Shown: piece after piece, positions 26,829 through 30,469 of the stretch
Numbering within the stretch: position 1 is the first letter of the stretch
How the letters are laid out: each line of letters begins with the position of its first letter
Source of the DNA: Actinomycetota bacterium
GTDB lineage: Bacteria > Actinomycetota > Actinomycetes > Nanopelagicales > Nanopelagicaceae
Direction of reading: 5' to 3'
Assembly: GCA_016870975.1 (NCBI GenBank)
Contig: VGAE01000002.1
Coordinates: 62,001-126,000 of the forward strand
DNA length: 64,000 bases
Notes under the pieces: model-generated
Databases searched by the model: none
What the model was told of the DNA's origin: nothing
Seen by the model: the letters and a program-made list of their open reading frames with translations, nothing else
Program-made: the position numbers and the translations under genes

Positions 26829-28160
26829 GTGGCCCATGAAATCCCCCGCAAGACCAGCACTCGTAGCGCCAAGTTGGCAAGTATTCCGCTCTCGGTAGCG
26901 GGACGTGGTGCACTTGGACTTGGCCGACAATTAATTGGCCAATCGCCACAATTTGCATTTGCGGAATTACAGGAGAAGACCGCTGAACAAGTTTTTAAAG
27001 TTCTCGGTGAATTAAAGGGCGGAGCTATGAAATTTGGTCAAGCGCTCTCAGTCTTCGAAGCCGCGCTTCCTGAAGATATCGCGAGGCCCTATCGACAGAC
27101 CCTGGTAAAACTTCAAGAAGCTGCGCCACCGCTACCGGCAAAGGTAGTTCATAAAGTTCTCGCGAAAGAGCTTGGTGAAGATTGGCGAGATAACTTCGCC
27201 GAATTTGAAGATAAGCCGGCCGCCTCAGCCTCAATCGGCCAAGTCCATCGCGGACGTTGGAAAGATGGACGGGTGGTTGCAGTAAAAATTCAATATCCGG
27301 GAGCTGCCGAAGCCCTTGTCTCTGATTTAAACCAGATTGAGAGATTCTCAAAGATCTTCCAATTATTTATGCCAGGTCTTGAGATGAAGCCTCTCCTTGA
27401 AGAGTTAAAGGCTCGAATTATTGAAGAGGTTGATTATCGATTTGAGGCTCAGGCCCAAGAAGCATGTTGGAACGCTTATTTAAATGATCCTGATATCGCG
27501 ATTCCCAAAGTTGTCTTAGCTACCGATCGAATTCTGGTCAGTGAATGGTTAGAGGGTAAACCCCTTGCTCGCGTTATCGCAGAAGGCGATCAAGAGGAGC
27601 GAAATAAGGCGGGAATTAAATTAGCAAGATTCCATTTCACTGCTCCGATGCGAGCCGGCTTGCTACATGCCGATCCTCACCCAGGCAACTTTAGAGTTCT
27701 TGCAGATGGCAGATTGGGAGTGCTTGATTTTGGTGCTTGTAATCGTCTGCCCAATGGATTTCCTGAACCATTTAAACGGTTACTCCGCAATGCGTTAGAG
27801 GGCGATGCGCTAGCGCTATACAACGGTTTTAAGGAGGATGGATTTATCCTTCCCGATGTTGATGTGGATCCACAATTGGTACTTGATTATCTCTTACCTC
27901 TAGTTGAACCGCTACGTGCAGCTTATTTTGAATATACCCGCGAATGGTTGCGTGAACAAAGCGTTCGAGTTGGCGATCCGAGAAATCCAACTGCAAAAAT
28001 CGGCTTCCAACTAAATCTTCCAGCGGAATACGTTTTGATACATCGCGTTACTTTAGGAACAACCGGAATTTTCTGTCAGCTACGTGCTCAAGGAAACTTT
28101 AGGGATGAGGCGCTCTCTTGGTTTCCCGAGATAACGCCCTCCCATCTACAGCAGGTTTAG
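26829..28160 (+). CDS. ABC1/AarF (UbiB-like) kinase family protein
   Basis: KFGQALSVFEAALPE, ASIGQVHRGRWKDGRVVAVKIQYPG, HADPHPGNFRVLADGRLGVLDFG; GTG start. Confidence 0.94.
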   Translation: MAHEIPRKTSTRSAKLASIPLSVAGRGALGLGRQLIGQSPQFAFAELQEKTAEQVFKVLGELKGGAMKFGQALSVFEAALPEDIARPYRQTLVKLQEAAPPLPAKVVHKVLAKELGEDWRDNFAEFEDKPAASASIGQVHRGRWKDGRVVAVKIQYPGAAEALVSDLNQIERFSKIFQLFMPGLEMKPLLEELKARIIEEVDYRFEAQAQEACWNAYLNDPDIAIPKVVLATDRILVSEWLEGKPLARVIAEGDQEERNKAGIKLARFHFTAPMRAGLLHADPHPGNFRVLADGRLGVLDFGACNRLPNGFPEPFKRLLRNALEGDALALYNGFKEDGFILPDVDVDPQLVLDYLLPLVEPLRAAYFEYTREWLREQSVRVGDPRNPTAKIGFQLNLPAEYVLIHRVTLGTTGIFCQLRAQGNFRDEALSWFPEITPSHLQQV

Positions 28161-28162
28161 AA

Positions 28163-28522
28163 CTAGGCGCTTGCTCCCGCCAATTCAACGAGGCGAGGTC
28201 TTCCAGGAGTTCGCTTCTTAGCAATTACCTGGCCATCTTCAAATAACTCTCCACCCCAAACCCCACATGGTTCTTCACGTGAGAGCGCTCCAGCTAAACA
28301 TTCTCGTCTAACGGGACAGGCGCCACAGAGGCTCTTCGCTAATGCGATCTCTTCACTCCTCTCCGAGAAGAAAAGTTCCGGGTCAGAGTTGTGGCATGGC
28401 AGGGTTACTGCGCGTTGATCGCTAGATGTGCCAGTGATGTAATCAAGGCCAAGCTTTGCGCTCTCGCCTTCTGCCCATCCTGGAACTAATAACTCACTAA
28501 AGAGAACTGTCATAGTTCTCAC
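28163..28522 (-). CDS. whiB7: WhiB-family Fe-S transcription factor, WhiB7/WblC type with C-terminal AT-hook
   Basis: Cysteines CHNSD..CGACPVRREC, EEPCGVWGGELF, terminal AT-hook PGRPR; between ABC1 kinase and uvrD2 as in other actinobacteria. Confidence 0.88.
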   Translation of the reverse strand: MRTMTVLFSELLVPGWAEGESAKLGLDYITGTSSDQRAVTLPCHNSDPELFFSERSEEIALAKSLCGACPVRRECLAGALSREEPCGVWGGELFEDGQVIAKKRTPGRPRLVELAGASA

Positions 28523-28577
28523 CTCTCCCTTTCTTCTTCTCGTTTGGTATTGGCTCTTCGGTTCTTGACCGGGGATA

Positions 28578-28615
28578 GAAAAAGGGGCCCGAATCCATTT
28601 GGATTCGAGGCCCCT
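28578..28615 (-). terminator. Intrinsic terminator/attenuator in the whiB7-like leader
   Basis: Minus strand AGGGGCCTCGAATCC-AAAT-GGATTCGGGCCCCTTTTTC, between uORF and whiB7 start. Confidence 0.9.
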
Positions 28616-28634
28616 GGGCTTCTCTATCTCTTAC

Positions 28635-28793
28635 CTACTCGATAGAGGCTCCAGGTTTCGAACCCTTGGTATTTGTCGCAAAATAGGTGAAAACCGACTC
28701 TGTCGACGGAGCGGACCAATGGGCAGCCCAATTGCGGTGAGCACGCTTAGCGGCCACCGTTGAGATGATCTTCTTCATCGAAGTTGTCTTCAT
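28635..28793 (-). CDS. Upstream leader ORF (52 aa) of the whiB7-like gene
   Basis: MKTTSMKKIISTVAAKRAHRNWAAHWSAPSTESVFTYFATNTKGSKPGASIE*, ends 20 nt before the terminator hairpin. Confidence 0.72.
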   Translation of the reverse strand: MKTTSMKKIISTVAAKRAHRNWAAHWSAPSTESVFTYFATNTKGSKPGASIE

Positions 28794-28800
28794 GGAGCTA

Positions 28801-28843
28801 AGGGTAAGCCAAGCCCATCTCTGCTGGCAAACGAGTTTTAAAT
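28801..28843 (-). promoter_or_regulatory. Candidate promoter of the whiB7-like leader
   Basis: Minus strand ATTTAAAAC (AT-rich), TTGCCA (-35-like, 28830-28825), TACCCT (-10-like, 28806-28801), uORF ATG 7 nt further on. Confidence 0.5.
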
Positions 28844-30469
28844 CAGCCCTGCCTCACGGAGAAATGGGCTTGCCTCACCGGCATAACTGAGATGTAGGGC
28901 GCGTTTTGCGCGAGTAACCCCAACATAGAAGAGGCGGCGCTCCTCATCTATCGGCTCAGCCAGGGGTAGATATCTAGCCGATGCTCCGGCGAGATAGACG
29001 CTCTCCCACTCCAAACCTTTGGCGCTATGTAACGTGGCGATTGTTACTCCAGGAAGATCAGGTGGATTGTTCTGATCAGCGCGCTCCTCTAGTTCTCGAA
29101 GGAATGCTCGCATTGAATCAATTCCATCATTTGATAATTCTTGAGCCAACTGAATCAAAGCTCTTACATATTTATCTTCAGCGCCAAATGATTTTAATAA
29201 GTCCCTTAATTCGCCTAGCCAATCCCCGGATGAGAGTACGGAAGCGCTGCGAATCGCCGCCATCATGGATCTGACATCACCTCTATCAAAGAAGCGTTCT
29301 GCGCTCCGTATCTGATTCTCAATCCCTGCGTTATTCAAGGCCGCTTCAATTGCATCTAGTTGAGAATTGGTACGAGCGAGTACTGCTAGTGATTTAACGC
29401 CAGTAGATATCTCACTCTTAACAGTTTCGGCAAGGGTTAATAGCTCTTCCGCCTCTGAATTTACTGAAACAACTTTAGGTCGATCGCCATGGGTGTTAAT
29501 GGCATCTAAATCGTGACCCAACTCGCCACTTCTCAAGATTGAATTAGCAATATTTATAATTTCTGGGGTGGAACGATAGCCAGCGCTAAGCCGAATAACT
29601 TCAGCGTTTGGATATTTCTTCGTGAAGTTCAGTAAAAATGCTGGAGTTGCTCCAGCAAAAGAATAAATGGTCTGGGCGGGATCTCCAACGACACAGATAT
29701 CTTCGCGCTTGCCTAACCAGAGATCAAGTAGTCGCTGTTGTAACGGAGATACATCCTGGTATTCATCAACAGTGAAATAACGGTACTGATCGCGTATCCG
29801 ATCTCGGATCTCTCTTATCTCCTCTAACATGCCAACTGTTAATAAAAGTACATCCTCGAAATCAATTGCTCGTTCTTGCCGCTTTAAACTCTCATACGCC
29901 TCGTAAGTTTTGGCAATATCCTCAAGTCCAAACTGTTCTCTACTCTTTCGAGCGCTAACTCGAACGGATCGAGAATTAGTCAAGGCAGATTCAATATACT
30001 CATCGCTTGGAATCTGTTGCACTTTGGCCCATTCAATTTCACTCGAAATATCGCGGAGCAGAGTGGGGCTCTTAATTAATTTCAATCCAGCGCGATCAAT
30101 TGCCTCACCAAGAAATGTGCTCTTGCTCGTCAATAGCGAGGGAAATCTGCCGCCGAGGGCTTCCGGCCAGAAATATAGAAGTTGCTTTAGCGCTGCCGAG
30201 TGAAATGTGCGCGCTGCAATTGCGGGAACTCCTAAGGTGCGAAGTCGCGATCTCATCTCACCAGCAGCCCGCGCTGTAAAAGTTAGCGCGAGAATTCGAT
30301 TTGGCTCGATAATGCCAATATCAACGGCGTAGGCCAATCGATGGGTGATTGCTCGCGTCTTTCCCGTTCCAGCGCCGGCAATTACGCAGACTGGACCTCG
30401 AACAGCGGTAGCAACTGTGCGTTGCTCATCATCTAATGCCGCCAGGATCTCTTCAGCGGCCGACATCAC
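28838..30469 (-). CDS. uvrD2: UvrD2-like superfamily I DNA helicase
   Basis: GAGTGKTRAITHRLAY, VDEYQDVSPLQ, GDPAQTIYSFAGA, ATLHSAKGLEWESV. Confidence 0.92.
   Translation of the reverse strand: MMSAAEEILAALDDEQRTVATAVRGPVCVIAGAGTGKTRAITHRLAYAVDIGIIEPNRILALTFTARAAGEMRSRLRTLGVPAIAARTFHSAALKQLLYFWPEALGGRFPSLLTSKSTFLGEAIDRAGLKLIKSPTLLRDISSEIEWAKVQQIPSDEYIESALTNSRSVRVSARKSREQFGLEDIAKTYEAYESLKRQERAIDFEDVLLLTVGMLEEIREIRDRIRDQYRYFTVDEYQDVSPLQQRLLDLWLGKREDICVVGDPAQTIYSFAGATPAFLLNFTKKYPNAEVIRLSAGYRSTPEIINIANSILRSGELGHDLDAINTHGDRPKVVSVNSEAEELLTLAETVKSEISTGVKSLAVLARTNSQLDAIEAALNNAGIENQIRSAERFFDRGDVRSMMAAIRSASVLSSGDWLGELRDLLKSFGAEDKYVRALIQLAQELSNDGIDSMRAFLRELEERADQNNPPDLPGVTIATLHSAKGLEWESVYLAGASARYLPLAEPIDEERRLFYVGVTRAKRALHLSYAGEASPFLREAGLI

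Follow-up and report, generated by a model that had tools for sequence, protein, structure and literature searches.

The analysed window, a 64,000-nucleotide stretch of a Nanopelagicaceae genome (contig VGAE01000002.1), has along its minus strand the order nudC–uvrD2–leader–whiB7–MABP1, in which a leader with an upstream open reading frame (uORF) and an intrinsic terminator separates a uvrD2-like helicase gene from a whiB7-like gene (Table 1). In the window mrx1 is missing from the interval between uvrD2 and whiB7, and apart from this absence we take the gene order to be that of mycobacteria. The whiB7-like product contains a WhiB domain (PF02467, E 4e-17), and its best match in the Protein Data Bank is M. 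tuberculosis WhiB7 (7kif, E 7.5e-26), with an alignment that runs through the GRPR AT-hook. The genome holds three further WhiB-like genes that are all far weaker matches to WhiB7. By its best structural match and the flanking uvrD2-like and MABP-1-like genes, the gene downstream of the leader is a true WhiB7 orthologue. The initial annotation had recognized a whiB7-like gene but placed its start at 28522; the GTG at this position is in frame in the window, but four relatives (L021, L023, L028 and L029) have the corresponding GTG in a different frame from the conserved ATG, so the ATG at 28513 is the most likely start. The convergent neighbor has its best NCBIfam match in MABP-1 (NF050082, E 1e-133), yet scores under that model's cut-off. 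At the other end of the locus, the nudC-like and uvrD2-like frames share 17 overlapping bases (30453–30469, minus strand).

Table 1. Features of the whiB7 leader and its flanking genes, in window coordinates.
Feature	Position	Strand	Details
ABC1/MABP-1-like gene	26829..28160	+	convergent with whiB7; PF03109
whiB7 orthologue	28163..28513	-	116 aa from ATG 28513; Shine–Dalgarno (SD)-like AGGGAGAGG at 28530-28522
Intrinsic terminator	28579..28615	-	stem AGGGGCCTCGAATCC 28615-28601, loop AAAT, GGATTCGGGCCCC 28596-28584, TTTTT 28583-28579
Apical hairpin CTCTATC/GATAGAG around uORF stop	28622..28649	-	fold; genus-swap p <= 5e-5
uORF	28635..28793	-	52 codons, MKTTSMKKIISTVAAKRAHRNWAAHWSAPSTESVFTYFATNTKGSKPGASIE; stop TAG 28637-28635; frame kept in relatives
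Antiterminator helix 2, CCTGG	28651..28655	-	pairs with CCAGG 28617-28613; fold and genus variants
Antiterminator 5′ arm, helix 1, GGGTTCGA	28658..28665	-	pairs with TCGAATCC, 28608-28601, in terminator 5′ arm; fold and covariation
Predicted -10 element TACCCT	28801..28806	-	family promoter pattern
Predicted -35 element TTGCCA	28825..28830	-	directly past uvrD2 stop; AT-rich TTTAAAA upstream; family promoter pattern
uvrD2-like helicase gene	28838..30469	-	flanking, order conserved; PF00580/PF13361

The predicted promoter of the window follows a pattern shared across the family, composed of an AT-rich stretch, TTGCA or TTGCC, an 18-nt spacer and TACYCT. This pattern is matched, in a few cases more poorly, in 78 of 102 family leaders, and the spacer is exactly 18 nt in nearly all of them. 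From these motifs alone, transcription is predicted to start at 28794/28793, which is the uORF ATG itself. Wherever a promoter was recognized in a g1 leader, the uORF ATG lies 7–9 nt past the -10 element; distances of 6–9 nt characterize the window's genus and also appear in individual leaders of g2, g8, g9 and g16, compared with 15–90 nt in most other genera. The short distance therefore predicts a leaderless uORF in the window's genus and in those individual leaders, in contrast to mycobacterial whiB7 uORFs, which follow an SD motif (PMC4128351). The AT-rich element adjoining the -35 is conserved across family leaders and is a candidate feed-forward site through which WhiB7 may act back on its own promoter. 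A search of the genome with the strict pattern TTGC-N20-TACYCT returned four matches against four in the control and thus no clear regulon; one of the four was checked and proved intragenic, and for both reasons we claim no WhiB7 regulon.

Folding of the leader supports two alternative structures. The strong intrinsic terminator noted between uORF and whiB7 in the initial annotation is present: the segment alone folds at -27.4 kcal/mol (z -4.4), and none of 200 shuffles is as stable. A 76-nt segment that begins in the uORF tail and runs through the terminator 5′ arm forms one interrupted stem of -30.8 kcal/mol that occupies 82% of the ensemble (z -4.2, with 1 of 200 shuffles as stable), and a duplex between these two elements reaches -23.3 kcal/mol (shuffle p 0.0006). 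Both structures use the terminator 5′ arm, and terminator and antiterminator are mutually exclusive. The proposal that GGGTTCGA, late in the uORF, pairs with the terminator arm as an antiterminator thus agrees with the fold, and also with the covariation described below. The CTCTATC/GATAGAG helix around the uORF stop is likewise present, not as the separate second element first described but as part of one long antiterminator, and a third antiterminator helix, CCTGG/CCAGG, had been missing from that description.

We compared about 100 leaders, 93 of them distinct, from nearly all of the family's 17 genera. The leader plan is kept in approximately 100 family loci, with a median of 17.5 nt between the uORF stop and the terminator stem, and in 92 of the 93 distinct leaders the minimum free energy fold contains the pairing between uORF tail and terminator 5′ arm. 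The exception, L119 of genus g9, has a terminator and a uORF, yet its uORF tail is unpaired with the terminator arm in this fold and no clear antiterminator was seen. A WhiB-like match is present in 295 of 296 family genomes; in many incomplete genomes weaker WhiB-like matches were found and the WhiB7 orthologue was not. Genome G031 (genus g4, 93% complete) has other WhiB-like genes and no WhiB7 orthologue at E <= 1e-25, a possible case of WhiB7 loss. Two assemblies each carry two whiB7 loci, G043 (C3 and C1) and G236 (C3 and C56), through either duplication or strain mixture.

All three helices covary between genera. Covariance model R1 caught the terminator alone (10 pairs). In the window's clade MAFFT places the uORF tail one base out of register, and column-wise pair counts on that alignment were uninformative. 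We therefore used alignment-free tests in which helix arms were swapped between genera, with 20,000 genus permutations, none of which reached the observed value. Matched arms were more stable than swapped arms for the terminator (-21.1 versus -16.6 kcal/mol), the antiterminator (-22.0 versus -17.8 kcal/mol) and the stop-codon hairpin (-8.5 versus -6.2 kcal/mol; permutation p <= 5e-5 in each case). In helix 2 the genus variants can be read directly as ACCTGG/CCAGG, ACTTGG/CCAAG and, in g6, CCCGG/CCGGG, and the synonymous ACC/ACT codon before TGG tracks CCAGG/CCAAG in the terminator arm.

The 52-codon uORF was found at the position and with the sequence originally quoted, and in relatives it is kept as a reading frame with a third-position bias. 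Across 35 independent close pairs, in the part of the uORF outside the antiterminator, substitutions at codon positions 1, 2 and 3 number 91, 72 and 164, pointing to a coding constraint that is real but modest. Gaps in the aligned uORFs often have a length that is not divisible by three, and the peptide is therefore loosely constrained. Ala, Ser and Thr are enriched in uORFs family-wide. The suggestion of an Ala-rich uORF holds clearly across the family, where Ala makes up 12–27% of the uORF upstream of its final 10 codons, compared with 9.7% in the window's long ORFs, but is not significant for the window uORF alone (Ala 8/51, p 0.12).

The uORF tail of the window differs from that of its sisters by a compensated local frameshift. 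Sister tails read GGA TTC GGC ACC TGG AGC TCT ATC GAG TAA (GFGTWSSIE), whereas those of the window and of L005, its nearest relative, read GGT TCG AAA CCT GGA GCC TCT ATC GAG TAG (GSKPGASIE). A base has been lost ahead of the shifted stretch and another gained behind it, so that the conserved TWS codons are replaced and the peptide is altered while the pairing RNA is intact. Sequencing error is unlikely because L005 is a separate assembly. Independently, uORF tails in genus g8 encode TPGGYIG or similar. A frameshift that changed the peptide and kept the pairing, together with the independent case in g8, argues for selection on the tail of the window's clade as pairing RNA rather than as peptide. 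The lineage thus has its own uORF sequence, as had been proposed, in the detail of these last codons; the device itself extends across the class.

Beyond this family, most of the leaders sampled elsewhere in the class combine a GC-rich terminator (GGGCCGCGGAACCC...) with a uORF that ends just upstream and whose tail pairs with the 5′ arm of that terminator; several of these uORFs end in WSPPV or WSDPA, about 18–24 nt before the terminator. The class-level terminator scan was simple, and some leaders gave no terminator. The window's own genome has one strong copy and no other (E 7.8e-18). Since most class-wide leaders have the same layout, the device is, judged by its architecture, the known whiB7/wblC uORF attenuator and not a lineage invention. 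Attenuation of whiB7/wblC by a uORF is described in mycobacteria and Streptomyces (PMC11550727, PMC10727445, PMC13393426, PMC13236596, PMC4128351), with the riboregulator attributed to Lee, Lee & Roe 2022 (Mol Microbiol) as cited in PMC11550727 and PMC10727445. As far as these sources describe it, that riboregulator shares with the leader studied here a uORF, a Rho-independent terminator, an antiterminator built from overlapping uORF and terminator sequences, and a position before the orthologous whiB7 in a similar gene neighborhood. The leader of the window differs in being shorter (about 280 versus about 350 nt), in the lower GC content of its arms and in the locally frameshifted uORF tail of its clade. 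Leader-peptide attenuators of amino-acid genes (actinobacterial ilvB, trp/his type) also let the ribosome's position on a leader ORF choose between terminator and antiterminator, but they are not homologous; here there is no run of a single amino acid, and the target is a regulator of general translation stress.

We conclude that the leader very probably controls whiB7 as a cis-acting transcription attenuator and is a homologue of the mycobacterial and Streptomyces riboregulator. Transcription would start at or beside the uORF ATG. Ribosomes that translate freely as far as the uORF stop would mask or open the uORF tail and stop hairpin, allowing the terminator to form and transcription to stop about 65 nt short of whiB7; judged by footprint size, a ribosome at the stop would shield both the apical hairpin and helix 2. 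Ribosome stress that blocks translation or stalls it early in the uORF, which we infer to be the trigger, may come from an antibiotic or from a shortage of an aminoacyl-tRNA such as that for Ala, alanine starvation being a known whiB7 inducer in mycobacteria according to papers that cite Poulton 2024. By the same footprint estimate, the antiterminator would stay accessible when a ribosome stalls within the first ~35 codons, which include 6 of the 8 Ala codons. The exposed tail could then pair with the terminator 5′ arm through GGGTTCGA/TCGAATCC, CCTGG/CCAGG and the stop hairpin, so that no terminator forms and whiB7 is transcribed.

A hairpin about 220 nt past the uvrD2 stop and on the same strand could simply terminate uvrD2, with the uORF a chance open frame. 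This explanation is scarcely credible given a conserved promoter between uvrD2 and the uORF, the third-position bias within the uORF, the covariation of its tail with the terminator arm and the recurrence of the plan across the class. The third-position excess and conserved residues would also suit a uORF that encodes a functional small protein, with the attenuator acting as a simple constitutive brake. We consider that very improbable, as the peptides are strongly divergent from genus to genus and the local frameshift in the window's clade replaced the C-terminal motif and retained the RNA pairing.

The widespread TWSxIG/WSPPV-like endings raise the further alternative of a sequence-specific, ErmCL-like arrest of the ribosome by the uORF peptide, in which the amino acids near the stop would be the sensor. 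However, the codons for these endings are the antiterminator arm, the CCTGG-type RNA is mostly kept where the residues differ (GASIE in the window and L005, TPGGYIG in g8), and the synonymous ACC/ACT changes follow CCAGG/CCAAG, so arrest by the peptide is improbable, if a little less so than the two explanations above. Within the preferred reading of a translation-coupled attenuator, a bolder proposal combines two ideas: that with a leaderless uORF as sensor the switch may report leaderless initiation and respond to another spectrum of inducers, and that the clade frameshift is a natural experiment in which selection acts on the final uORF codons as RNA and not as peptide. We hold this combination only tentatively and think it rather doubtful as a whole.

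The leader is a previously undescribed but well-supported case of a known RNA switch, with nothing new in principle. We found no paper that names Nanopelagicaceae together with WhiB7, and these data add direct covariation evidence that the whiB7 attenuator extends to this streamlined, low-GC freshwater family. That small genomes retain it almost without exception suggests that translation-stress sensing matters beyond antibiotic producers and pathogens. Local features worth reporting are the predicted leaderless uORF and the compensated frameshift in its tail, and the family comparison yields a three-part antiterminator model open to mutational test. No curated Rfam family matched the window leader or nine relatives, class-level leaders included, at gathering score, and a covariance model could thus be built for annotation.

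Sequences around whiB7 also vary within the family. A palindromic repeat, GTTGGGGTAAAGCAAAT...ATTTGCG.ACCAACG, lies between whiB7 and the MABP-1-like gene in L008, L009, L015 (two copies), L017 and L019, and was sought in the window and found absent. In several genera, short tandem repeats lengthen the spacer between terminator and whiB7, including AACCAAGCCAGG in L027, CAGAAAAG in L109 and a further case in L087.
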